A stretch of 64,000 nt of DNA, taken from assembly GCA_018828125.1 (NCBI GenBank), contig JAHJWB010000022.1, positions 62,001 through 126,000 of the forward strand, read 5' to 3'. The notes below the pieces were generated by a model that was not told the DNA's origin, did no database searches, and saw nothing but the letters and a program-made list of their open reading frames with translations. This document shows positions 24,891 through 40,075 of the stretch, piece after piece; position 1 is the first letter of the stretch, and every line of letters starts with the position of its first letter. Source of the DNA: Gammaproteobacteria bacterium. GTDB lineage: Bacteria; Pseudomonadota; Gammaproteobacteria; Burkholderiales; Burkholderiaceae_C. Made by a program: the position numbers and the translations under genes.

Positions 24891-27800
24891 ATGACATCTC
24901 CTTTCAAAAGCTCGCGCCTTGGCTTGCTCGCAATTTTTGTCATCTCCGGTTTTGCTGGGCTGATATATCAGTCAATTTGGTCACACTATCTGGGGCTCTT
25001 TCTTGGCCACGCCGCATATGCACAGGCCCTGGTGCTGGCGATCTTCATGGGCGGAATGGCGGCGGGCGCCGCGTGGATTGCTCAGGCGGGGCAACACTGG
25101 CGCAATTTGATCCAGAGTTATGCCGTCATTGAGGCAATCATTGGCGTCCTTGGTTTGCTGTTCCACTGGGTCTTCACGGGCGTGGCCGGTTTCAGCTACG
25201 ACACCCTGATTCCGGCGCTGGGCTCACCACTGGCGGTGGACATTGCCCGCTGGAGCATTGCAGCGCTGCTGATCCTTCCGCAAACCATTCTTCTCGGTAT
25301 GACCTTCCCGCTCATGAGCGGCGGTTTAATCCGGCGCTACCCCGGCAGCGCAGGCAACCTTCTGGGCGGCCTGTATTTCACCAACAGTATTGGCGCGGCT
25401 ATTGGGGCGCTGGCAGCCGTCTTCGTGCTGCTGCCCTGGGTCGGCCTGCCCGGTGCCATGGTCACTGCCGGGATTTTGAACTTTGTTGTTGCTGCACTGG
25501 CCTGGTGGCTGGCACGGGAGCCTGAACCCGCCCCCGCCAAACCCGTCACAGAGGCCGACGCTCCTGGGCAATCCCTGCGCACAAACCCTCTGCTGCGCTT
25601 CGTGTTGTTCGGCACCGCCTTGTCCGGCGCGGCGTCCTTCGCGTATGAAATCATCTGGATTCGCATGCTCAGCATGGCCGTCGGCAGCACCATGCACGCG
25701 TTCGAGTTGATGCTTGCCTCTTTCATCGCCGGCATTGCACTGGGCGGATTGTGGGTCCGCAAACACGCCGACAAGACAGATTCACCCCTGCGGCTGGTGG
25801 GTTGGATGCAAGTTTTTATGGGCATCGCGGCACTGGCGTCTCTCTTTGTCTATGCCAATGCCTTTACTTGGGTGGGCTGGCTGATGCAGGCACTGGCCAA
25901 ATCCGACGGTGGCTACGCCCTGTTCAATCTGGGCACCGCAACCATCGCCATCGCGATCATGTTGCCCGCGGCATTCTTTGCGGGCACCACCCTGCCACTG
26001 TTCACTGTGGCGCTGCTGCGCGCTGGGCAAGGCGAGCGCGCCATTGGCCGGGTGTATGCATGGAACACCCTGGGCGCTATCTTGGGCGTATTTGCCGCCA
26101 TCCACCTGTTGATTCCTGTCCTAGGCCTCAAGCTCGCCTTGTGCGTTGCAGCCATCGTGGATATTGGCATTGGCCTGTTCCTGCTGCGGGCCCAGGCCGA
26201 GGACAAACGATCCATGCTTCGCTTTGCGGTGGCTGGCGGCTTGGCCGCCACGGCGCTCGTTCTCGCCGTGCGCGTGCCTTTCGACCCCATGACCATGGCC
26301 TCTGGCGTGTTTCGCCATGGTCGCACGAGCCTTATGGCTGATGATCGAATCCTCTACTACCAGGACGGGAAAACTTCCAGTGTGTCGGTGGTCGTATCGC
26401 CGGAGGGGGGCGTTCAAATTGCCACCAACGGAAAAATTGATGCATCCATCGCCATGAAGGATGGTGTTGAGCCTATTGTTGATGAACCCACAATGACATT
26501 GGCGGCCGCGCTACCTCTCGCGATGCACGCCGATCCAAAACGCATAGGCGTCATTGGCTTCGGCTCGGGCCTGACGACCCATACGCTGCTGGGCGATTCA
26601 AGGGTGGAGCGTGTCGATACTATCGAAATTGAAGAGGCAATGGTTGTAGGCGCTCAAGCGTTTGGGGATCGCGTGAAGCGAGCGTATACAGATCCGCGGT
26701 CGCGCATTGTGATCGACGATGCAAAATCCTATTTTGCAGGTCAAAAAACCAAATACGACATTATCGTATCCGAGCCCTCTAATCCCTGGATCAGCGGCAT
26801 TGGTGCTCTTTTTTCTAAAGAGTTTTACAAGTTTGTCCCTACGCAATTGAATGAGAATGGACTCTTTGTTCAATGGATTCAGCTTTATGAAATTGATGAG
26901 TCGCTCGTGGGGTCTATATTGAATGCCATGTCTCCGGCGTTTGACGATTATTCGGCCTGGCTTAGCAATTACTCCGATCTATTGATCGTGGCCAGTCCTA
27001 AAGGCCCGCTTCCGAAGTTGGAAGTAGACCGCTTGATGGCAGGCCCACTGAAGGCCGAGCTGGCTCGATTGGGAATTGGCACCGCTGAGCAGCTTAATTT
27101 CCGGAAGGTAAGCGACGGTAGATTGCTGCGGGCGTTTGCGCGCACACACTCCACCCGACCAGCAAATTCCGATTATTTTCCGATACTAGGCTTGAATGCG
27201 CCAAAAACAAGATATAAAGTTATTGAAGCTGCGGAATTGGTGCAATTGCCGATCCAGCCGCTCCTGTTTTTAGAGGCGCTCAAAATCAGAGCACCATTGC
27301 CAGCAGCAGTTCAGCCGACGGAAATCAATCATTTTTTACCTGAAATATTTACACGGCGCGCCCGTGCGTTGGCGGCCGATCTGCGTGGTGAGCTGACGGA
27401 TGATCCGGTGAGGGGGCTGTTGCCAAAGGTGTACGAGCCGACCATATTGCTTCGAGCAGCAGTACCCGCCTGTGGGAAAATCTGGTCCCCTGCGCAAACC
27501 GAAATTTTGGCAGAACGCCTTCTGGATGTCGCAGAAATGACGATCAGCTATCTGCCAGGGGAATTACTGAAGGGTGTTTGGATTGAACCAAAATGGCATC
27601 AATGCGAGATCATGCCAGATGATTTTAAACGCACCTTTAAAATGTTGGACGTTATGGCTCGCCGAGATTACCCAGCCGTGGAACATGTAAGCAGGGAGTG
27701 GCTTGAAAAAACGCCTGAAAATTCAGCGCTGCGAAAGTACTTTGCGCCAGTGGCCTTGTCCAATATCCTTGTCTCACTGGCTCGCGATGAAAAGTGGGAA

Positions 27801-27899
27801 GATGTAATTTCAACAGAAAATGTCTTGGGAAGTAATGTGGCATCTAAAGGAGCATATCTTCAGCAGCGCCTGTTTTTGAAAGCCATGGCAGTTGATTGA
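24891..27899 (+). CDS. Fused MFS-type membrane domain / spermidine synthase-like protein
   Basis: A 1002-residue polytopic protein. Residues about 1-460 form some 12 hydrophobic helices (SGFAGLIYQSIW, GMTFPLMSGGLIRRYPG, NSIGAAIGALAAVF are typical of the 'fused spermidine synthase' group). Residues about 490-740 resemble a SpeE aminopropyltransferase Rossmann domain: GVIGFGSGLTTH (about 551), DTIEIEEAM, and VSEPSNPWISGIGALFSKEFY (about 626). The usual catalytic DSSDP gate reads SEPSNP, so true spermidine synthesis is doubtful. Residues 740-1002 match nothing I know. The 3' half is clearly more AT-rich than the 5' half. It neighbours pilin genes. Group function is unknown; some membrane-linked SAM or dcSAM chemistry is possible. 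Confidence 0.8.
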   Translation: MTSPFKSSRLGLLAIFVISGFAGLIYQSIWSHYLGLFLGHAAYAQALVLAIFMGGMAAGAAWIAQAGQHWRNLIQSYAVIEAIIGVLGLLFHWVFTGVAGFSYDTLIPALGSPLAVDIARWSIAALLILPQTILLGMTFPLMSGGLIRRYPGSAGNLLGGLYFTNSIGAAIGALAAVFVLLPWVGLPGAMVTAGILNFVVAALAWWLAREPEPAPAKPVTEADAPGQSLRTNPLLRFVLFGTALSGAASFAYEIIWIRMLSMAVGSTMHAFELMLASFIAGIALGGLWVRKHADKTDSPLRLVGWMQVFMGIAALASLFVYANAFTWVGWLMQALAKSDGGYALFNLGTATIAIAIMLPAAFFAGTTLPLFTVALLRAGQGERAIGRVYAWNTLGAILGVFAAIHLLIPVLGLKLALCVAAIVDIGIGLFLLRAQAEDKRSMLRFAVAGGLAATALVLAVRVPFDPMTMASGVFRHGRTSLMADDRILYYQDGKTSSVSVVVSPEGGVQIATNGKIDASIAMKDGVEPIVDEPTMTLAAALPLAMHADPKRIGVIGFGSGLTTHTLLGDSRVERVDTIEIEEAMVVGAQAFGDRVKRAYTDPRSRIVIDDAKSYFAGQKTKYDIIVSEPSNPWISGIGALFSKEFYKFVPTQLNENGLFVQWIQLYEIDESLVGSILNAMSPAFDDYSAWLSNYSDLLIVASPKGPLPKLEVDRLMAGPLKAELARLGIGTAEQLNFRKVSDGRLLRAFARTHSTRPANSDYFPILGLNAPKTRYKVIEAAELVQLPIQPLLFLEALKIRAPLPAAVQPTEINHFLPEIFTRRARALAADLRGELTDDPVRGLLPKVYEPTILLRAAVPACGKIWSPAQTEILAERLLDVAEMTISYLPGELLKGVWIEPKWHQCEIMPDDFKRTFKMLDVMARRDYPAVEHVSREWLEKTPENSALRKYFAPVALSNILVSLARDEKWEDVISTENVLGSNVASKGAYLQQRLFLKAMAVD

Positions 27900-28784: not shown

Positions 28785-29324
28785 TTAACGGCAAGTGGCA
28801 GGCGCGTACTTCGCTTCCAGCGTACCGGCCTTCGCACCAGCCATGCCGGCCTTGGTTGCGGAGACCCCCGTTACGGAGGAGCAGGCCCAGTCAAGCGCGC
28901 CGCTGGTGCCAGCCGTCAAAGCTGCAGCCAGGGTAACGGACGTGCCCTTGGCCGCCGTGCGCACATAAGGCGAGATTACCAGCGTATTCTTTGCCGCAGC
29001 AACCCCGGTGGAGGCAGCGTTGTATGTCACCGTAATCGGGCCGCCAGCGGCAATCTGCACGCTGTCAACAAACTTGGAGTTGGCGCCGGTATTTGCATTC
29101 TGGGCATTCCAAGTCAAGACGACGTTAGCCAGTTCGTTGGTGCTGGTGCCGTCAGTGGCGATCATGTTCTTCGCGCCTTGGGCCAAGTTCAGGCCTTCGG
29201 TCACACGGGTACGCACGGTGTAGTCCTGATAAGCCGGCAGCGCGATGGCCGCCAGAATACCAATGATGGCTACCACGATCATCAGTTCGATCAGGGTAAA
29301 ACCCTTTTGCATAAAACGCTTCAT
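28785..29324 (-). CDS. pilA: Type IV major pilin PilA
   Basis: A 179-residue type IVa prepilin. The leader MKRFMQKG is followed by the N-methylated Phe9 and [45 protein letters not shown], the canonical hydrophobic spine with Glu5 of the mature protein. PilD would cut after Gly8. The globular part is Ala/Thr-rich, with a C-terminal disulfide loop between Cys in LDWACSS and the terminal PATCR. It assembles into type IV pili for twitching, adhesion or DNA uptake. Strong ribosome site (AAGGAG). A sigma-54 promoter and upstream palindrome precede it. The variable globular domain is the part expected to differ between strains. Confidence 0.95.
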
Positions 29325-29645: not shown

Positions 29646-30437
29646 CTACATCACAAACTCTTGGCCCGCTTTCAGCCAACGAATGTCGAGCGGTGCCGTA
29701 AACCCTTCGGGCATGTGCGCTTCAAACTGTCGAATCTCTTTCATGATGAGTTCAGTCTCCGAAGGTTTGGTGTGGGTGATATAGATTGGGTAACGCTGGC
29801 CTGGGAGTATGTTGGCCAGCTCTTCTGCCAAAGTGAAAGGCGACAGATGCAAGCTACGGTTAGCTAGCTCGACTTCGCGGTTGCTGAAGGCGGTCTCGAT
29901 AATGAGGAGGGCAATGGGCAGCGTGTTAACGCGAGCCCAGAACGCGGGGTTGCGTCCGGTGTCCCCACTGAACGCCAACCAGCCGTCGGCGCCGCGCACC
30001 GCATACCCCACTGCGGGAACGGTATGCAACGCCGGAAGGGCCTCGATCAGAATGCCACCCGCATCAATCTGCTGCCCCGTCTGGATGGCGTGGTACTGCA
30101 TGAAGGGCTCCGCAGTTGACGGGATGGCGCTAAAGTCGGGCCATATGACATCATTGAACACATGGGTCTGCAGCGCGGCGATAGTGCCCAGTAGAGCGTA
30201 GACCTGAACAGGCGTGTTACGTAAGGAAGACACCGCATCCAGCATCAGCGGCAACGCCGCAATGTGATCCAAATGCGAATGCGTCAAAAACACATGGTCA
30301 ACCTTGCTCATCTCTTCCAGCGTCAGGTCCCCCACGCCGGTGCCTGCATCAATCAGGATGCTGTCACCGATCAAGAACGAAGTCGTGCGACAGTCCTTGG
30401 CGATGGCGCCTGAGCATCCGAGCACGCGTACCTTCAT
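29646..30437 (-). CDS. MBL-fold cyclic-nucleotide phosphodiesterase (class II, CpdP-like)
   Basis: A 263-residue metallo-beta-lactamase-fold hydrolase. The zinc motif is HVFLTHSHLDHIAALPL (H53, H55, D57, H58), which matches the class II cyclic nucleotide phosphodiesterase pattern HxHLDHxxG. GYAVRGADGWLAFSGDTGRN supplies the bridging Asp, and IIETAFSN and ITHTKPSE complete the site. The class cleaves 3',5'-cAMP or cGMP. It lies 33 bases after the CHASE2 adenylate cyclase gene, so cyclase and phosphodiesterase appear co-transcribed. No signal peptide is seen, so it is probably cytoplasmic. It is the last gene of the signalling operon. Confidence 0.82.
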   Translation of the reverse strand: MKVRVLGCSGAIAKDCRTTSFLIGDSILIDAGTGVGDLTLEEMSKVDHVFLTHSHLDHIAALPLMLDAVSSLRNTPVQVYALLGTIAALQTHVFNDVIWPDFSAIPSTAEPFMQYHAIQTGQQIDAGGILIEALPALHTVPAVGYAVRGADGWLAFSGDTGRNPAFWARVNTLPIALLIIETAFSNREVELANRSLHLSPFTLAEELANILPGQRYPIYITHTKPSETELIMKEIRQFEAHMPEGFTAPLDIRWLKAGQEFVM

Positions 30438-30470
30438 GTATTGCCTTCTGTTCTGGTATAGACGGCTAAA

Positions 30471-32732
30471 TTACTTGCTGTCGAAATTGGTGGCGCCGTC
30501 CCAGTCAGGGGTGAATCCCTGTTGGCGTAACAGAGCTACACGCGAGGCATATAGGTCATAGAGTGTGCTGCCTTGACGAACATTGTTGAGACGGGAGAGG
30601 CAACCATCGCATTGTGCCCACTCTTGTGCCCAGTAGGCTGTGAGGAATTGCCCCCATTCTTCAAGTTCGCGTTCTTCAGCAGGGCTCACAGCCTCCAACT
30701 TTGACTGGGGCCAGAAAATAGCTACCGCTTCGGCCTTGCCCTTCACACGCACGAGATCGAGTTGTTGCCAGGCAAACTGCGGTGCTTGCAGTTTGGTGCT
30801 CTCGCTCACGACAATTGACTTGCCGTAATGTTTGGACAGTCCCTCTAGGCGAGAGCCGAGGTTGACCGCATCGCCAATGACCGTGTAGCTGCGGCGTATG
30901 TCCGAGCCCATGTCACCAACACACATGGTTCCCGTATTCAGGCCGATCCCGACGCCAATCTCAGGCAAGCCGCGTTGACGGTGGCCTTCGTTGATTTCTG
31001 CAATAGCGTTTGCCATATCGATGGCGGCGGCCACGGCCAATTGTGCATGGTCGGGGGTAGTGACCGGCGCACCCCAGAAAGCCATGACGCAGTCCCCCAT
31101 GTACTTATCAATCGTTCCCCTGTGTCTGCGGATGACGTGGGTGAGTTTGCTGAACACGTCATTAAGCAGGGCCTGCAGTTGCAAGGGCTCCATTTGTTCG
31201 GACATGGCGGTGAATCCTCGCATGTCGCAGAACATGACCGTCAGCTCTCGGCTAGCGGCCTCCATACTGTAGTTCTCCGGCTCCTTGACCATTTCGTCCA
31301 CCAGCTCTGGCGGAACGTATGTTCCAAAGAGTGCGGCCAGTTCGCGTTTTGACTTGCTTTCTACGAAGTAGCCGTAGACCATATTGAGCGCGAAAGCGAG
31401 CACTGACATCAGCACAGCGGTCGCCAGCGGTAGTGCGAGGCCATGCGATATGTAGAGCCACAGGTTCATACCAGTCAGCACCACCACCACACTGCTGCTC
31501 AGTGCCACCGCTGGCCCCGCAGCCAGCAAGGGAAGAGTAATGGCGAGCAGGATACCTGCGCATAGCAGCTGCAAAGCGTCAAACCCGATGGCGTAGCCGG
31601 GCCGCACGATGTTTTTGCCGTCGAGCAATGCCGATAGAACGTTGGCGTGTGTTTCAACGCCTGGGTATGTTCTGCCTACGGGGGTCACACGCAAATCGAG
31701 CAACCCGGGGGCAGTGGAGCCGACGAGCACCACCTTGTCGCGCAAACTGGCCTCCGGGAGTACCCCCTCAAGTGCATCTGACGCTGAGATGTACTGAAAC
31801 GACCCACCCAGGACATCACCCGGTCCGCGAAACGGTATGAGGGTGGCGAGCTGGTCGTCTACAGGGATGGCCAGCGATCGGCCATCTTGGCGCAGGATGA
31901 TGCTTTGCAGTGTGTCGTAGTCACCTTGTGCATTGCGATTGGCATAACCTGGAGCAACTTCTGGCATGCCCATGACCGTGCGGTACATAGCCAGAGCCAA
32001 CGATTCATAATACTGACCCCCGTGCTCCGCCAATAAAGGCAAGGACCGCACAACACCGTCTTCGTCGGTGATGGAGTTGAAGAACCCGGCGACTGGAGCG
32101 GCCTGCGCCAAGACTTCGATATTGGCGCCGTACCCGTTCCACGATGTTGCACGCAGCGGGAGGCCGCGCAGTTGATCGGCGTTGAGGGCCGGGCTGGGCA
32201 AGGTGCCTCGGGTGCGGCCATCGCGGTCACTGGTGAGGTAGAAGCCCAGCACAGCGGTGCGCCCGGTGAGTGACTGAGCGAAAAGGCCGTCGTAGTTTAG
32301 GGTGGGAGCGAGTTTTGCCAGCAGGTCTGAGAAACCTGATTGGCTTTTGAAAGGCCCCGCGGCCAGGCGCTGCAGGTTACTCAAGCCCGAGCTGCCATCC
32401 GCTTCGGCAAAGATCACATCGAAGCCAACGGCCGCCACTTGCTGACGCTCGAACAACTCCTGCGAAAGAGCTGCCATCTTGTCGCGGCCCCAGGGCCATT
32501 GACCAATCCGACCAAGGCTTTTTTCATCAATGTCGATGATGACGATGCGCTCGTCGAGCGTGCGCGGCATCGTGGCGCGCAGCCGGGTGTCGTAAATGAT
32601 GTTGTCCAAGCGCTCCAGCACCTGAAGGTGCAGCACGTTCGATACATGCAGCAAGGCGAACAACAGGGGCAGCAGCGTAATGCCAATACGGCGCCACCGG
32701 TGGCGAAACAGGTGCGAGAGCTGTTGCCGCAT
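30471..32732 (-). CDS. CHASE2 sensor adenylate cyclase (class III)
   Basis: A 753-residue membrane protein. One N-terminal helix (residues 16-38), a periplasmic CHASE2 domain (about 40-355; DERIVIIDIDEKSLGRIGQWPWGRDKMAAL is diagnostic), three helices (about 370-450), then a class III cyclase domain (about 490-690). ELTVMFCDMRGFTAMSE carries the first metal Asp and DKYMGDCVMAFWGAP the second. The purine-selecting pair is Lys (IDKYMGD) and Thr (RSYTVIGD), the combination of adenylate rather than guanylate cyclases. GIGLNTGTMCVGDMGSDIRRSYTVIGDAVNLGSRLE is complete, so it should be active. AGGAA precedes the ATG. It is the fourth gene of the signalling operon. Confidence 0.9.
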   Translation of the reverse strand: MRQQLSHLFRHRWRRIGITLLPLLFALLHVSNVLHLQVLERLDNIIYDTRLRATMPRTLDERIVIIDIDEKSLGRIGQWPWGRDKMAALSQELFERQQVAAVGFDVIFAEADGSSGLSNLQRLAAGPFKSQSGFSDLLAKLAPTLNYDGLFAQSLTGRTAVLGFYLTSDRDGRTRGTLPSPALNADQLRGLPLRATSWNGYGANIEVLAQAAPVAGFFNSITDEDGVVRSLPLLAEHGGQYYESLALAMYRTVMGMPEVAPGYANRNAQGDYDTLQSIILRQDGRSLAIPVDDQLATLIPFRGPGDVLGGSFQYISASDALEGVLPEASLRDKVVLVGSTAPGLLDLRVTPVGRTYPGVETHANVLSALLDGKNIVRPGYAIGFDALQLLCAGILLAITLPLLAAGPAVALSSSVVVVLTGMNLWLYISHGLALPLATAVLMSVLAFALNMVYGYFVESKSKRELAALFGTYVPPELVDEMVKEPENYSMEAASRELTVMFCDMRGFTAMSEQMEPLQLQALLNDVFSKLTHVIRRHRGTIDKYMGDCVMAFWGAPVTTPDHAQLAVAAAIDMANAIAEINEGHRQRGLPEIGVGIGLNTGTMCVGDMGSDIRRSYTVIGDAVNLGSRLEGLSKHYGKSIVVSESTKLQAPQFAWQQLDLVRVKGKAEAVAIFWPQSKLEAVSPAEERELEEWGQFLTAYWAQEWAQCDGCLSRLNNVRQGSTLYDLYASRVALLRQQGFTPDWDGATNFDSK

Positions 32733-32798
32733 GGTTCAGATTCCTGGGGCCAATCCGGCGTCAAGACTGGCTGAAAGACCTGCTTTTCCTGACGCGTG

Positions 32799-33455
32799 TC
32801 AGCTCTGCTCGAACTGCATTTCGGTTCCGGCGAGTTCCAGCATATCACCGTGCTTCAAGGGCACAGGCGATGCGCCGATGGCCGCACCGTTCAACATGGG
32901 CATATCGGGGCCTTCCACATGCGCCAGCACAAATCCATGGTGGCGTTTGGTGATGGAAGCCACGGCTACGCCCGGTTTACCGATGGTAGTGACGACCTTT
33001 TGCAGTGACACCTCGCGCCCGGCGGCGGCGCCCGACATGACGCGTATCACCGCCGAAATGGGCGCAGGAGCGGGTGTTGGCGCCAACGACGCTGGCCGGG
33101 ATGCGGATCCGATTGGCGGAACCATTCCAGGCTTGAAGATCATGGTCTTTTCGAAGTTCTGGCCTTCCGCTTCATGGAAGAAGCGAATCTTGTACTTGCC
33201 GACCTCAACCGTGTCACCATTGCGCAGTTCTTGGCGCTTGACGGCTTTTGCGTTGACGTAGGTGCCATTGGTGCTGCCCAGGTCTTCGATCTCCACCTCG
33301 TGGCCAGCCATGTGGATCACGGCGTGTTCGCCGCTCACGGCGAGGTTGTCAATCACAATGTCGTTGTAAGGCCGCCGACCAAGGGTGGTCCTCTCCTTGG
33401 TCAACTGCACTTCCTTGATGACGACCCCGTCGATTGAAACGATCATTCTGGGCAT
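32799..33455 (-). CDS. FHA-domain phosphothreonine-binding protein
   Basis: A 218-residue soluble protein. The N-terminal FHA domain (about 1-92) has the binding-site residues: RTTLGRRPYNDIVIDNLAVSGEHAVI and DLGSTNGTYVN. A linker with FEKTMIFKPG and a Pro/Ala-rich stretch follows. Residues about 140-218 (VIRVMSGAAAGREVSLQKVVTTIGKPGVAVASITKRHHGFVLAHV...DMLELAGTEMQF) look like a second, degenerate FHA fold lacking the canonical N-G-T loop. It would read phosphothreonines made by the kinase of the same operon. The start at MPRMIVS has AGGAG at good spacing; a TTG start 15 codons upstream is less likely. Confidence 0.9.
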   Translation of the reverse strand: MPRMIVSIDGVVIKEVQLTKERTTLGRRPYNDIVIDNLAVSGEHAVIHMAGHEVEIEDLGSTNGTYVNAKAVKRQELRNGDTVEVGKYKIRFFHEAEGQNFEKTMIFKPGMVPPIGSASRPASLAPTPAPAPISAVIRVMSGAAAGREVSLQKVVTTIGKPGVAVASITKRHHGFVLAHVEGPDMPMLNGAAIGASPVPLKHGDMLELAGTEMQFEQS

Positions 33456-33496
33456 GATCCACTCCTGATGTGATGAATTGTTGTAGTTCGGTCCGC

Positions 33497-34306
33497 TCAA
33501 GCGGCACCTAGCAAACGGGACATAAGGCCGCGCTTCTTGCCTCCAGCGGCGGCCTGCACCAGCAGCACACTGACGTTATCACGACCACCGTTCGCATTGG
33601 CGGTGTCGATGAGCAGTGTGGCTTTTTCCTCCAATGCAAGCGGCGCACGGACCATCTCTGCCAGATCCGCGTCCGTCACCATGTCGGTAAGGCCGTCGGA
33701 GCACATCAGAAACAGGTCGTTGGGCGCCACCTGGAACTCGTTGACTTCCATCATGACGTTGGGCTCCACGCCCAGGGCTCGGGTGACGAGGTTGCGGTTG
33801 GATGAAAGCGCTGCCTGCTGCGAAGTAAGCAGGCCAGCATCGACCTGTTCCTGCAGCCAAGAGTGATCGCGAGTGATCTGTTGGATGGCGCCATCCCGCA
33901 AGCGGTAGCAGCGGGAGTCGCCTATATGTCCCAGGATCAGCCGGCTGCCATGGAATACGCCCACCACCAGGGTGGTTCCCATGCCCGCGTACTGCGGGTT
34001 GGACAGCGACGCGCCCAAAATGGCGTGGTTTGCGTTTTCCACGCAAATTTCCAGTGCACGTCGTACGTCGGTGGATTGTGGCGTGGTGCCTGCCTGGGCC
34101 AACCAGCGACCCATCTCTGTACGTATAAAGGTGGTGGCCATGCCACTGGCTACTTCGCCTGCGTTGTAGCCCCCCATGCCATCGGCCAGGATGGCCACCT
34201 GGGCGTCGCGGTCCACAGCTACCGCGTCTTCGTTGTTCGTGCGCACGCGACCCTTGTCGGTCCGTGCGAAAAATTCGTAGGTCATGGATGTTGCGGCGAG
34301 CGTCAT
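33497..34306 (-). CDS. PP2C-family serine/threonine phosphatase
   Basis: A 269-residue cytoplasmic PPM/PP2C phosphatase. All metal-binding motifs are visible: RTNNEDAVAV, ILADGMGGYNAGEVAS, GHIGDSRCYRLRDGAIQQITRDHS, FLMCSDGLTDMV and GGRDNVSVLLV. It resembles bacterial Stp1/PstP enzymes, which dephosphorylate the partner kinase and its targets. It begins in an ATGA overlap with the kinase gene, so the two are translationally coupled and made in similar amounts. The FHA gene follows 41 bases later. A second in-frame ATG seven codons in (MTYEFF) is an alternative start. Confidence 0.95.
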   Translation of the reverse strand: MTLAATSMTYEFFARTDKGRVRTNNEDAVAVDRDAQVAILADGMGGYNAGEVASGMATTFIRTEMGRWLAQAGTTPQSTDVRRALEICVENANHAILGASLSNPQYAGMGTTLVVGVFHGSRLILGHIGDSRCYRLRDGAIQQITRDHSWLQEQVDAGLLTSQQAALSSNRNLVTRALGVEPNVMMEVNEFQVAPNDLFLMCSDGLTDMVTDADLAEMVRAPLALEEKATLLIDTANANGGRDNVSVLLVQAAAGGKKRGLMSRLLGAA

Positions 34307-36963
34307 CGGGCGCCTGAAGATGGCGGGGATGCCGCACCCCGCACAGCGGGTGGCTCCATCACGGTTTCCTGAAAATCCGCCATCTTATGCCCTGTTGCAT
34401 CGCGGTCCGCATCATAGACGACTGCTTCGGCGGCAGCCAGCACTCCCGCGGGCTCCGCCGCGGCTGCCCTCAGGTCTGCCGCAAACTGGCGGCCGGTCTG
34501 GTAGCGGGCTTCGGGGCGCTTCTTCAGCGCTGCTGCCACAACCTTGGCCACCGCAGGCGATACATCTGGGCGCAACTGGCGCACATCGGGGGCGTCTACG
34601 GAGGCAATCTTGTGCATCAACTCGGTCATGGACTCGCCGCGCAAGGGCAGTGTCCCGGTGAGCAACTGAAACAGCGTGACACCCAGCGAGTACAGGTCCG
34701 ACCGTCCATCCACTTTCTTCCCGGCAAGTTGCTCGGGGGACATGAAGCTAGGTGTGCCTAGCACCAGGCCTGTGCGGGTCTTGCTGGAGTCCGTGATGCG
34801 CGCAATACCAAAGTCTGTGACTTTGACGGCGTCCGATGCGCGATCGAACATGATGTTGGCGGGTTTGATATCACGATGCACCACATTGTGCGCATGCGCG
34901 TAATCCAGGGCATCGGCCACGCGGGCGGTGATGGAGAGCACAGTGGCGACGGGAAGCAAGTGTTCTTTGTGGCAGACCTGTGTGAGGTCGGTGCCTTTGA
35001 GGAACTCCATGGCGATATAGGCCAGATCGTGTTCCTCGCCTGCATCAAAAATGGTCACGATGTGGGGATGCTGCAGACGGCCCGCAGTTTCGGCCTCGCG
35101 GAAAAAGCGCGCGCGAGCGTCGATGAGTGCATCGCCCTCGAACTCTTGCCCTAACGCGAGGGTCTTGATGGCGACCACCCGGCCAATTTTGGGGTCGCGC
35201 CCGCCATAAACCACGCCCATGGCGCCTTTGCCCAGCTCTTTCTCGATCTGGTAGCGCCCCAGCATGGGTATACCCCCTGCCGCATCACCCGGTAGGCGTG
35301 GTCGGTTGCCTTCTGGAGACAGGGTTGGTGGAGTGCTGGATGGGCCCTCGGAGTCTTTTTGAAGTTTTGCGCGGGCACGCTTATAGCGGGCTCGGGCGTC
35401 TTTGTACTGCCGGTTGTGGCGCAGGATGTGTTCATAGGCGGCCTTGGCCTTCGCAAAGTTGCGTTGGCGCTCGAAGTCCTGTGCCAAGTGGTACAGGTTG
35501 TCCATCAAGGCATCACTGGGTGGGACTTTGCGCAGCCGGTCAAAAGCCATATCCAACTGGCCTTGACCATGCAGTGCGAGGCCCATCATGCGGTCGGCTT
35601 CAGCTGTTTCTGCAGACTGGTTTGAGTTGGATGAATGGCCCAGGCTACGGCTTACTGCCATCGCTGCCGCTCCGGCTAACAGGCCGATGGCAACCAGCAA
35701 CATTCCCGGCAGCCATGTTCCTGCATAACGGAGCAGGCTCCATTCCACACCCACCGCCACCAGCACCAGTGCAAGACTTGCACCCAGCCCAACCATCAAC
35801 GGCAAACGCGGCACCACCATGGCGGCAAACAGCAACCCAGTCAGCGTCGCGGCCCACCACGTGATCGAGGGCGCCTCTTTGACGGTGAGCCCCTGCCGCA
35901 TGTTGGACACTGTATGGGCAAGCAATTCAACGGGAGCTACAAAATGCCCGCCAGACTGCGTTGAGGGCCCTGCGGCGGTAATGCCTGTTTCCCCCACCAG
36001 CACAACCTTGTCCTTGAACACGGATGCCCCGGTTTTACCTTCAAGCACAGCAACAAACGACGCAGTGGCAAAAGGCGATGTCCCTTCGGTGGATTCATAC
36101 AAGCGGGTTCGCATCATTGCCGCGGCGTCGGTCGCAATCTCCAGGCCGCCGAGGCGCAATGCAGGTGGCGATGCCTGGATACGCAGGTCGTCCGCGCTGA
36201 GGTGCAAGCTGTGCCGCGCAGCAAGCAGGGCAAGAGACGGAATGCCGGCCTCGTCGTACCGTAGCAGAAGGGGTACTTGGCGTACTGCGCCGTCCAGATC
36301 GGCTACAGCATGCAGATGTCCTACGCCCAAAGCCACAGAGCCCAGCGCTGCAATAGGGTGTTGGGCCGACTGGACAGGTGTCGCAAAGGCACCGGGGTCT
36401 GGCAGAGTGCCGCGGCGTGCATAGGCAGGAAGCGCCGTAGGCCTGCCCGATGTGGCGTAGCTGGAGGCCAAAAACACATTGCCCGCCTTCTGAATGCTGG
36501 ATGCCAGCAGGGCATCTATGTCCAGCGCACTTTCGGCCTCCATGGCCACCCGGCTGAGTTCGGCCGCCAATGGGGATCCGTCGCCCGCACTGGCCAATGT
36601 TGCCTTGATTTTGCGGATCTGGTGAAGCGCGGATTCAGACTGAGGGGCCGAGAACGAGGGGGTGTAGACGATGGTTTTGGCGCCTGCCGCCGCCAGTCTG
36701 TCGATCAGCCGTGCATGCACATCTCGCGGCCAGGGCAAAGGGCCCAGCGCAGCCACGCTGGCGTCGTCCATGCCGATGATGGCGATTTCCGCAAGCGGCG
36801 CCGGCGTTGAAATGCGGGTGGCAGCGTCGTAAAGTCGGAGGTCCAGACGATCAGCCACCCCGGCAACAGCGCATAGCACCACAACGGCAACAGCCGCGGT
36901 GGCATTCCAAAAGCCCTCGGTACGCCAAATATCAAGCCGCCGCGCCGAGGTTCTTCGTCCCAC
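34303..36963 (-). CDS. CHASE2 sensor serine/threonine protein kinase
   Basis: An 886-residue membrane kinase. Order: N-terminal helix (about 20-37), periplasmic CHASE2 domain (40-350; APLAEIAIIGMDDASVAALGPLPWPRDVHARL), three helices (365-438), a TPR-like helical segment (455-535), then a Hanks-type kinase (570-830). Kinase motifs: GKGAMGVVY, VAIK (K600), HRDIKPAN (D698), DFG (717-719), GTPSFMSPEQ. The tail holds MADFQETVMEPPAV, a possible autophosphorylated FHA ligand. It senses an unknown extracytoplasmic signal. It is the first gene of the five-gene operon. The start is GTG and uncertain by a few codons; no clear ribosome site is visible. Confidence 0.9.
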   Translation of the reverse strand: MGRRTSARRLDIWRTEGFWNATAAVAVVVLCAVAGVADRLDLRLYDAATRISTPAPLAEIAIIGMDDASVAALGPLPWPRDVHARLIDRLAAAGAKTIVYTPSFSAPQSESALHQIRKIKATLASAGDGSPLAAELSRVAMEAESALDIDALLASSIQKAGNVFLASSYATSGRPTALPAYARRGTLPDPGAFATPVQSAQHPIAALGSVALGVGHLHAVADLDGAVRQVPLLLRYDEAGIPSLALLAARHSLHLSADDLRIQASPPALRLGGLEIATDAAAMMRTRLYESTEGTSPFATASFVAVLEGKTGASVFKDKVVLVGETGITAAGPSTQSGGHFVAPVELLAHTVSNMRQGLTVKEAPSITWWAATLTGLLFAAMVVPRLPLMVGLGASLALVLVAVGVEWSLLRYAGTWLPGMLLVAIGLLAGAAAMAVSRSLGHSSNSNQSAETAEADRMMGLALHGQGQLDMAFDRLRKVPPSDALMDNLYHLAQDFERQRNFAKAKAAYEHILRHNRQYKDARARYKRARAKLQKDSEGPSSTPPTLSPEGNRPRLPGDAAGGIPMLGRYQIEKELGKGAMGVVYGGRDPKIGRVVAIKTLALGQEFEGDALIDARARFFREAETAGRLQHPHIVTIFDAGEEHDLAYIAMEFLKGTDLTQVCHKEHLLPVATVLSITARVADALDYAHAHNVVHRDIKPANIMFDRASDAVKVTDFGIARITDSSKTRTGLVLGTPSFMSPEQLAGKKVDGRSDLYSLGVTLFQLLTGTLPLRGESMTELMHKIASVDAPDVRQLRPDVSPAVAKVVAAALKKRPEARYQTGRQFAADLRAAAAEPAGVLAAAEAVVYDADRDATGHKMADFQETVMEPPAVRGAASPPSSGAR

Positions 36964-37171: not shown

Positions 37172-37858
37172 TCACGCGGCGGATTCGCGCCGCGCTTTGG
37201 ACGGCCAGAACTTTCCGATGCCCACCACCAGCGTTGCGCCCAAAGCCGCGGCCACATAGTGCAACGCGGGATGCGCCAAGGCATAGTCGTGCAGGATGGC
37301 GTCACTGGCGATGGTTTCGCCGCCTACCCACCCAATCAGTGCCGCGCCCAACACCACAATGAAAGGGAAGCGTTCCATCAGCTTGATCATAAGCGTGCTG
37401 CCAAAAATCACCAGCGGAATGCTGATGGCCAGGCCGAGGATCAGCAGGGTCGTGTTGCCCTGAGCCGCAGCGGCGACAGCGATCACATTGTCCAAACTCA
37501 TCACCAGGTCAGCGATCAGGATGGTCTGGACCGCGGCCATCAGGGTGCTGTAGGTCTTGGATTCCCCTTCGTCCGCATCGTCGTCGCTGAGCAACTGGAA
37601 CCCGATCCACAAAAGCAGGCAACCGCCGACGATCTGCAAAAACGACAGCTCCAGCAGCTTTGCCGCCACGACGGTCAGCAGAATCCGAAGCACCACGGCA
37701 GCGCCGGAGCCCCAGAAGACGGCTTTCTTTTGTTGGTGGGGGGGAAGCGATCGTGCAGCCAGGGCAATGACCACGGCGTTGTCGCCTGAAAGAATGATGT
37801 TGATCCAGACGATCTTCATCAGGCCGATCCAGAAATCGGCATTTTGCAAAAACTGCAT
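37172..37858 (-). CDS. TerC family integral membrane protein (second paralogue)
   Basis: A 228-residue membrane protein with about seven helices and the two TerC acidic motifs, IILSGDNAVVIALAARSLP and DLVMSLDNVIAVAAAAQG. The helix following (SIPLVIFGSTLMIKLMERFPFIVVLGAALIGWVGG) closely parallels the paralogue at 20895. An acidic loop SDDDADEGESKTY links helices 3 and 4. A metal-export role (manganese or similar) is expected from the family. The start at 37858 has GGAG at good spacing, whereas the GTG at 37870 does not. A strong hairpin (37883-37917) lies just upstream, but no riboswitch consensus is seen. Confidence 0.9.
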   Translation of the reverse strand: MQFLQNADFWIGLMKIVWINIILSGDNAVVIALAARSLPPHQQKKAVFWGSGAAVVLRILLTVVAAKLLELSFLQIVGGCLLLWIGFQLLSDDDADEGESKTYSTLMAAVQTILIADLVMSLDNVIAVAAAAQGNTTLLILGLAISIPLVIFGSTLMIKLMERFPFIVVLGAALIGWVGGETIASDAILHDYALAHPALHYVAAALGATLVVGIGKFWPSKARRESAA

Positions 37859-37882
37859 ACTGAACTCCACTGTTATGAATGC

Positions 37883-38002: not shown

Positions 38003-38899
38003 TTACTTCAGCTGCGCCTTGAGCAATTTGCCCAATTCCGAAGGGTTGCGGGTGATGATGAAACCCGACTCTTCCATGATGGCCAGCTTCGCATCGGCCG
38101 TGTCGGCACCGCCGGAGATCAGCGCACCGGCGTGGCCCATGCGCTTGCCTGGAGGGGCAGTCACGCCAGCGATGAAACCCACGATAGGCTTCTTCATGTT
38201 GGCCTTGCACCAGAGGGCGGCTTCGGCTTCGTCCGGTCCGCCGATTTCGCCAATCATGATGACGGCGTCGGTATCGGGATCGTCATTGAAGGCGCGCATC
38301 ACGTCGATGTGCTTCAGGCCGTTGATGGGGTCGCCACCAATGCCCACGGCAGTCGACTGGCCCAGACCCACTTCGGTCAGCATGGCCACGGCTTCGTACG
38401 TCAGCGTGCCGGAGCGGCTCACCACGCCAATGCGTCCCTTGCGGTGGATATGGCCGGGCATGATCCCAATCTTGATTTCATCGGGCGTGATGATGCCGGG
38501 GCAGTTGGGGCCCAGCAGCAGGGTCTTCTTGCCACCGGCGGCTTCCTTGGCCTTCATCTTGTTGCGCACTTCCAGCATGTCGCGCACTGGGATACCTTCG
38601 GTGATGCAGATCGCCATGTCCAGATCGGCTTCGACCGCTTCCCAGATGGCAGCAGCGGCGCCTGCAGGCGGCACGTAGATCACCGACACGGTAGCGCCGG
38701 TTTGCGATGCGGCTTCCTTGACAGAGGCGTAGATCGGGATGTTGAAGATCGACTCGCCGGCCTTCTTGGGGTTGACGCCCGCCACGAAGGCGTTCTTGCC
38801 GTTTGCGTATTCCTGGCACTTCTCAGTGTGGAACTGGCCCGTCTTGCCCGTGATGCCCTGGGTGATGACCTTGGTGTCTTTGTTGATGTAGATCGACAT
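38003..38899 (-). CDS. sucD: Succinyl-CoA synthetase alpha subunit
   Basis: A 298-residue subunit of the TCA-cycle enzyme that makes ATP (or GTP), succinate and CoA from succinyl-CoA. It begins [28 protein letters not shown], the CoA-binding Rossmann start. [41 protein letters not shown] is the ligase signature. The phosphorylated active-site His is in [13 protein letters not shown]. Length matches E. coli SucD. It lies 15 bases after sucC. Cytoplasmic heterotetramer with SucC. GGAG precedes the ATG. Confidence 0.97.

Positions 38900-38914: not shown

Positions 38915-40075
<1,161 letters not shown>

Follow-up and report, generated by a model that had tools for sequence, protein, structure and literature searches.

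A five-gene locus of a CHASE2 kinase, a PP2C phosphatase, an FHA protein and candidate cyclic AMP enzymes carries a putative self-ligand threonine in its FHA linker

In the threonine-phosphorylation pathway of the type VI secretion system (T6SS), the kinase PpkA, the PP2C phosphatase PppA and Fha work together, and in Pseudomonas aeruginosa the CyaB–cyclic AMP (cAMP) pathway controls type IV pili. Here we describe five adjacent genes in a 64,000-nucleotide stretch (hereafter referred to as the window) of an Acidovorax-like genome (contig JAHJWB010000022.1, positions 62,001 to 126,000), which encode a CHASE2 Ser/Thr kinase, a PP2C phosphatase, an FHA protein, a CHASE2 class III adenylate cyclase and a candidate phosphodiesterase (PDE) of the metallo-β-lactamase (MBL) fold. 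Unlike the T6SS proteins, the FHA protein of the window falls below the TagH cut-off and neighbours cAMP enzymes and a pilin. Its likeness to the CyaB pathway lies in that adjacent pilin and in the cyclase, which is related (E 1.1e-29) to structure 3r5g, which we take to be P. aeruginosa CyaB.

The FHA protein resembles the switch proteins GarA and OdhI of Actinobacteria and DgcB of Bdellovibrio in combining an FHA domain with a threonine, in a flexible segment, that obeys the same ligand rule, and its N-terminal FHA domain matches their folds at Z 16–18. In Bdellovibrio, according to the excerpted account, the DgcB switch controls a second-messenger cyclase (PMC6733907). Unlike in these proteins, the threonine of the window protein (Thr104) lies C-terminal to the FHA domain, ahead of a second, degenerate FHA-like domain; the genes for its kinase and PP2C are adjacent; and the cyclase is a separate class III enzyme rather than a GGDEF domain fused as in DgcB. 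The protein reaches 70 bits with the OdhI equivalog model NF041660 (cut-off 200), and it may work like OdhI while standing outside that equivalog. CyaD1, CyaD2 and CyaK of Sinorhizobium meliloti, which act with Clr, likewise pair CHASE2 with a class III cyclase and make cAMP from an external signal, and the excerpted account of them describes no kinase, PP2C and FHA set (PMC13001267). CHASE2 kinases have been described before: the cyanobacterial cbSTKII proteins fuse CHASE2 to a Hanks kinase, with no PP2C–FHA–cyclase–PDE neighbourhood in the excerpts of their description (PMC2176072). The preliminary description of the locus, made from the DNA letters, knew of no described system with this composition, and we found no account of this five-gene set in the open-access PMC literature, subscription papers lying outside the search.

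What is newly recognized is a linker motif, FEKTMIF, that fits the self-ligand rule of FHA switches. We favour, with rather more confidence than doubt, a reading in which the kinase, PP2C and FHA protein would form a phospho-switch acting through Thr104 and meeting the neighbouring cAMP enzymes, with the pilin as output. Bacterial Ser/Thr kinases and cAMP signalling have mostly been studied apart, and here the two adjoin in a set conserved across families.

The gene set and its linker threonine

The five genes lie co-oriented on the minus strand from 36963 to 29646. The kinase and PP2C genes overlap by 4 nucleotides (nt), and the remaining intergenic gaps are at most 66 nt. Pfam domains above the curated cut-offs are CHASE2 and Pkinase in the kinase, PP2C in the phosphatase, FHA in the FHA protein, CHASE2 and Guanylate_cyc in the cyclase, and PDEase_II and Lactamase_B_2 in the PDE; the open reading frames and these domains agree with the five co-oriented genes, with short gaps or overlaps, reported earlier. 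The features are as follows.

34303..36963, minus strand, CHASE2-Ser/Thr kinase: GTG start, 886 residues, CHASE2 134.4 bits, Pkinase 180.3 bits, four hydrophobic segments
34357..34374, minus strand, FQETVM motif in the kinase C-terminal tail (Thr867): candidate autophosphorylation or FHA-docking site
33497..34306, minus strand, Stp1-like PP2C phosphatase: Pfam PP2C, NCBIfam Stp1_PP2C_phos 247 bits
32799..33455, minus strand, FHA protein: 218 residues, comprising an FHA domain, a disordered linker and a second, degenerate FHA-like domain
33135..33155, minus strand, FEKTMIF linker motif (Thr104): predicted kinase substrate and FHA-domain self-ligand
30471..32732, minus strand, CHASE2 class III adenylate cyclase: 753 residues, Pfam CHASE2 and Guanylate_cyc
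29646..30437, minus strand, MBL-fold candidate cyclic-nucleotide phosphodiesterase: 263 residues, PDEase_II and Lactamase_B_2

The phosphothreonine branch is intact in its parts. The kinase retains K600, D698 and D717, which we take to be its catalytic motif residues; its match to the PASTA PknB/Stk1 model NF033483 (306.9 bits, cut-off 450) is confined to the kinase domain, and the protein has CHASE2 in place of PASTA. The phosphatase exceeds the 230-bit cut-off of NF033484 (Stp1/IreP PP2C), and the FHA domain carries R27, S41, H44 and N63, presumably the phosphothreonine pocket. The complete phosphothreonine circuit of the preliminary description is upheld, and it gains a predicted substrate and reader site.

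Thr104 stands in a linker that is predicted to be disordered, with a predicted local distance difference test score (pLDDT) below 50 at residues 99–109 and 111–125. The domain that follows is a degenerate FHA domain by profile comparison (probability 96), and 6 of 10 members give weak Pfam FHA matches, the best at E 0.0003; it matched no solved structure under E 0.1, and the fold-match list (VIA), filled by the first FHA domain, says little about it. In the excerpted account of self-recognizing FHA ligands, the rule is a hydrophobic residue at −3, +2 and +3 with Glu at −2, to which FEKTMIF conforms, and the DgcB peptide contains LEKpTSIV (PMC6733907). The 82 distinct linker 11-mers have F/Y at −3 in 77, E at −2 in 76, K at −1 in 72, M at +1 in 70, I/V/M/L at +2 in 80 and I/L/F/V/M at +3 in 79; because a permissive pattern covering −3 to +2 served to choose the linkers, only the +3 count is unbiased, and the raw linkers look alike.

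The linker motif and the kinase across genomes

The linker motif depends on the kinase. With three contig-edge proteins of the 156 FHA proteins left out (two of which have the motif), it is present in 112 of 115 proteins encoded with a kinase and in 13 of 38 without, or in 110 and 12, respectively, under a stricter pattern. Among loci of the window's own family the figures are 63/63 and 13/38, and they become 63/63 and 13/29 when the FHA domain must share 60% identity or more with that of the reference, L056. All 19 FHA proteins from other families are kinase-adjacent; 16 match the pattern, and the other three are Thr-containing variants by eye. The R/S/H/N pocket is kept in 156/156 homologues, with or without the kinase, while the linker motif varies, indicating that the loss is specific to the linker and that the linker threonine, not the domain, follows the kinase. 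On a tree of sucC and sucD, usable at 113 of the 156 loci, the kinase is gained or lost 24 times and the motif 18 times. Across 10 supported independent pairs that differ in the kinase, the motif differs in the same direction in 6.8 and in the opposite direction in 0.1 (median p 0.016, range 0.008–0.22).

A related motif recurs in the kinases. Tails of at least 20 residues (85 of 115) hold 95 FxxT[VMILATQ] motifs, where 500 shuffles give 5.6 with a maximum of 15, and 72 of the 85 have one; related tails are counted separately (FQETV 20 times), and 85 distinct tail stretches remain. Elsewhere the substrate-like motif is rare, occurring in 1 of 71 cyclases, 1 of 104 PDEs and 2 of 150 PP2Cs. On this distribution the likely target is the FHA protein, joined in some members of the family by the kinase; the direct action of the kinase on cyclase or PDE envisaged earlier finds no support.

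The gene order recurs in many genera, more than chance would give, and is not unique to one strain. At least 24 of 120 family genomes, our own included, have a near-full-length match to the CHASE2 kinase. With one kinase split across two contigs (G083, L149 and L150) and a diverged one at the G058 locus (L151), at least 26 of 120 have it at the locus; the count covers the matches listed, and CHASE2 kinases elsewhere in other family genomes are possible. All five genes are in order in 23 of these 26, G019 and G083 included, where contig ends truncate the set; of the other three, G066 (L136) and G058 lack the cyclase, and in G114 (L137) it is apparently interrupted. Apparent frame changes interrupt module genes at that last locus and at L218 (FHA and PDE). 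Homologues of the FHA protein (E 1e-20), PDE (E 1e-25) and cyclase (E 1e-30) were found in 105, 89 and 70 of the 120 genomes, respectively.

In a named set, the best 80 of 147 relatives, the nearest relatives of the window are Acidovorax. FHA proteins were obtained from 54 of the 59 named loci L056–L114, and the CHASE2 kinase, cyclase and PDE lie on one strand in 30 of those 54, mostly in Acidovorax but also in Ramlibacter, Simplicispira, Hydrogenophaga, Gallionellaceae, Amantichitinum and others. The environmental strains A. radicis N35 and A. delafieldii DSM 64 each have the complete five-gene set. This set overlaps the unnamed sample, with at least L060 and L075 identical to its L036 and L037, and identical FHA proteins were counted once. 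The Acidovorax metagenome-assembled genome C18_maxbin.065_sub holds two versions of the module (L056 and L057), with kinases 89% and 76% identical to that of the window; either the organism has the module twice or the bin is mixed.

Across the wider class, a kinase match at E 1e-100 occurs in 63 of 274 genomes, a few of these matches covering the catalytic part alone. At 20 loci from other families, drawn mostly from the best-scoring of these 63 genomes rather than at random, the kinase, PP2C and FHA genes are consecutive in 19, a related cyclase lies within 5 kb of them in 13 (nine on the opposite strand) and a PDE relative is present in 3.

The frame recA–sucC–sucD–TerC–kinase–PP2C–FHA–cyclase–PDE–pilin recurs across the family, with the kinase, cyclase and PDE lost separately. 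The composition of the 113 loci on the tree is kinase with cyclase and PDE in 45, kinase with PDE in 25, kinase alone in 9 and kinase with cyclase in 2; without the kinase, it is none of the three in 13 (FHA, usually with PP2C), PDE alone in 8, cyclase with PDE in 6 and cyclase alone in 5. Some absences of cyclase, PDE or CHASE2 are contig ends, and among the 127 loci with more than 5.5 kb downstream no composition is as frequent as the CHASE2 kinase together with cyclase and PDE (45). At 38 kinase-less loci (among L164–L243) an FHA protein remains, as a rule accompanied by PP2C and in many cases close to a pilin, and each of the 38 retains the pocket; six PP2C–FHA loci that lack kinase, cyclase and PDE (L224–L229) still hold the linker threonine motif.

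The cyclic-nucleotide branch and the two CHASE2 domains

A complete cyclic-nucleotide circuit had been proposed from the two distal genes. The cyclase half stands: D503, K543, D547, T617, N624 and R628, which we take to be the class III catalytic residues, are present, including the metal-binding Asp pair and the transition-state Asn and Arg. In the PDE, HSHLDH at 53–58, H138, D159 and H222, presumably the catalytic motifs, are present, and the metal site H53/H55/D57/H58/H138/D159/H222 is invariant in 17 of 17 aligned sequences. The protein (pLDDT 92 in the predicted structure) scores 41.8 bits with PF02112 (PDEase_II; cut-off 23.7) and 38.8 bits with the NCBIfam cyclic-nucleotide PDE model (cut-off 400). 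Its best solved-structure match by sequence is yeast PDE1 (E 5.9e-14), and its closest folds, at similar E-values, are YhfI, yeast PDE1, BA1088, Apyc1 and RNase Z. The earlier label of class II phosphodiesterase is thus a family match only, with cAMP a plausible substrate.

The genome has 16 cyclic-nucleotide-binding (cNMP) matches, and among those examined no receptor for the cAMP of the module and no canonical Vfr or Clr-type effector was identified. The best candidate, the Crp-like L156 (1225-2076), has His at one cNMP-pocket position, where, we assume, cAMP-binding Crp has Arg. A Ser/Thr kinase fused to a cNMP-binding domain (L282:2077-3396, contig C4 of the same genome; Pkinase 165.4 bits, cNMP_binding 53.6 bits) is a possible cAMP-responsive kinase.

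CHASE2 was detected in the kinase reading frame at 67 of 115 kinase loci and not at 48 (at least one of these, L150, owing to a contig end). A cyclase is present at 42 of 46 loci whose kinase has CHASE2 and at 5 of 30 whose kinase lacks it, an association that may be ancestry, since it has just 4 supported independent pairs. In a quick tree of 39 rows, with long branches flagged, the CHASE2 domains split into a kinase group and a cyclase group (supports 99 and 89), which look like old, separate lineages; a recent duplication of one CHASE2 into both receptors was rejected on this grouping. The proposal that the two branches read related signals gains no support from the groups, nor from the loci without a detected kinase CHASE2.

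Proposed mechanism and the neighbouring genes

Judged from its sequences, the phosphorylation branch most likely works as a switch made up of kinase, phosphatase and FHA protein, and its link to cAMP and the neighbouring pilin is a reasonable hypothesis. The CHASE2 kinase would sense something outside the inner membrane and phosphorylate Thr104 in the flexible linker, together with its own FxxT sites where the tail has them. The FHA domain would bind that phosphothreonine, whether on the same polypeptide or on a second one, like GarA, OdhI and DgcB, which would alter what the FHA protein can bind, and PP2C would reset the switch. The cyclase and PDE would set local cAMP; the switch would meet this branch most plausibly by binding one of the two, and the adjacent type IV pilin system is the likely output. 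With one residue and one kinase, the question of cross-talk between phosphorylation and cAMP becomes directly testable, and the natural losses of kinase, cyclase or PDE are ready-made comparisons.

Several observations weigh against this proposal. The motif persists at 13 of the 38 kinase-less loci, where another kinase may serve it or it may have a second role, and the other 25 lack the motif yet keep the pocket, so that the FHA domain must have another ligand there. Thirty of 115 kinases have tails under 20 residues with no FxxT motif, the motif is also absent from 13 of the 85 longer tails, and a tail match occurs in just one of 20 other-family kinases. The cAMP genes vary apart from the kinase (kinase and PDE without cyclase at 25 of 113 loci, cyclase without kinase at 11 of 113), and independent pairs gave no significant association of kinase with PDE, kinase with cyclase or cyclase with PDE (median p 0.22, 0.63 and 0.125, respectively). 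The genome contains five class III cyclase matches, four besides this one, so its cAMP is not the module's alone. A pilin follows 19 of 29 loci with more than 10 kb downstream (13 of 17 with the kinase, 6 of 12 without), so that the adjacency may be mere synteny.

These separate losses, the failure of the pair tests to couple the kinase to cyclase or PDE and the near absence of the kinase-type motif from both enzymes are what would be expected of two independent cassettes, a phospho-switch and a cyclase–PDE pair, that sit at one syntenic locus, perhaps on one transcript, and do not communicate at the molecular level. We regard this as possible but the less probable course: PP2C–FHA alone, cyclase–PDE without kinase, and kinase–PP2C–FHA without cyclase or PDE all occur, but shared transcription leaves unexplained the opposite-strand cyclase beside the trio in 9 of 20 other-family loci, and the complete composition is the commonest. 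That the cyclase keeps company with the trio through orientation changes argues for a functional tie, as the Thr104 switch meeting the cAMP enzymes would have it. An extension of that proposal, a two-input envelope unit of many proteobacterial families in which a tandem-FHA protein controlled by the CHASE2 kinase and PP2C switches the CHASE2 cyclase and PDE, placing cAMP and, within this family, type IV piliation under the control of threonine phosphorylation, is offered tentatively.

The MBL protein might instead act on another phosphodiester (RNA, a cyclic oligonucleotide or another cNMP) and work chiefly with the FHA branch. The PDE without cyclase at 38 of 127 loci, the mixed fold list and the low NCBIfam score agree with this, whereas the PF02112 score, the sequence match to yeast PDE1 and the company of the PDE at 57 of 64 cyclase loci speak for cAMP, and we regard a different substrate as possible but less probable. 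Direct phosphorylation of cyclase or PDE, with the FHA protein as a scaffold docking the phosphorylated kinase to them, would suit the adjacency of the genes and the many kinase tails with FxxT motifs resembling FHA ligands, of which a single tail has several in some genomes; it appears unlikely given the single motif-bearing cyclase and PDE, and no conserved Ser/Thr column of the PDE tracks kinase presence. Three Ser/Thr columns of the cyclase differ (0.90, 0.93 and 0.87 with the kinase; 0.45, 0.55 and 0.55 without) and two differ mildly (0.93 and 0.92 against 0.73), a comparison of few sequences (11 kinase-less), uncorrected for ancestry, on which we build no conclusion, though a site on the cyclase may exist. 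A displaced T6SS pathway, which has the same three protein types, is very improbable: the conserved immediate neighbours are sucCD, TerC and pilin, in a comparison that included no genome-wide search for T6SS genes, and T6SS membership of the FHA protein was rejected on its TagH score (37.5 bits, cut-off 120.25).

The set runs on into a wider locus, with recA, sucC, sucD and TerC upstream and, after a 321-nt gap beyond the PDE gene, a pilin and a TfpZ-like gene downstream.

38915-40075, minus strand, sucC: conserved upstream neighbour
38003-38899, minus strand, sucD: conserved upstream neighbour
37172..37870, minus strand, TerC-family membrane protein: conserved upstream neighbour
28785..29324, minus strand, type IV pilin: PF00114, the sole strong match in the genome
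27940..28719, minus strand, TfpX/TfpZ-like pilin accessory protein: 185.6 bits, under the family cut-off of 200

A second PF00114 match in the genome is partial and barely over the cut-off, and the excerpted account of Acidovorax citrulli pilA does not describe the neighbours of that gene (PMC10385852). A promoter and terminator scan found fewer sites than in shuffles. A tandem pair of TerC genes precedes the module at L168, L179 and L226, and beyond the TfpZ-like gene a plus-strand protein of 1002 residues, at 24891-27899 of the window, has MFS-like and spermidine-synthase parts.

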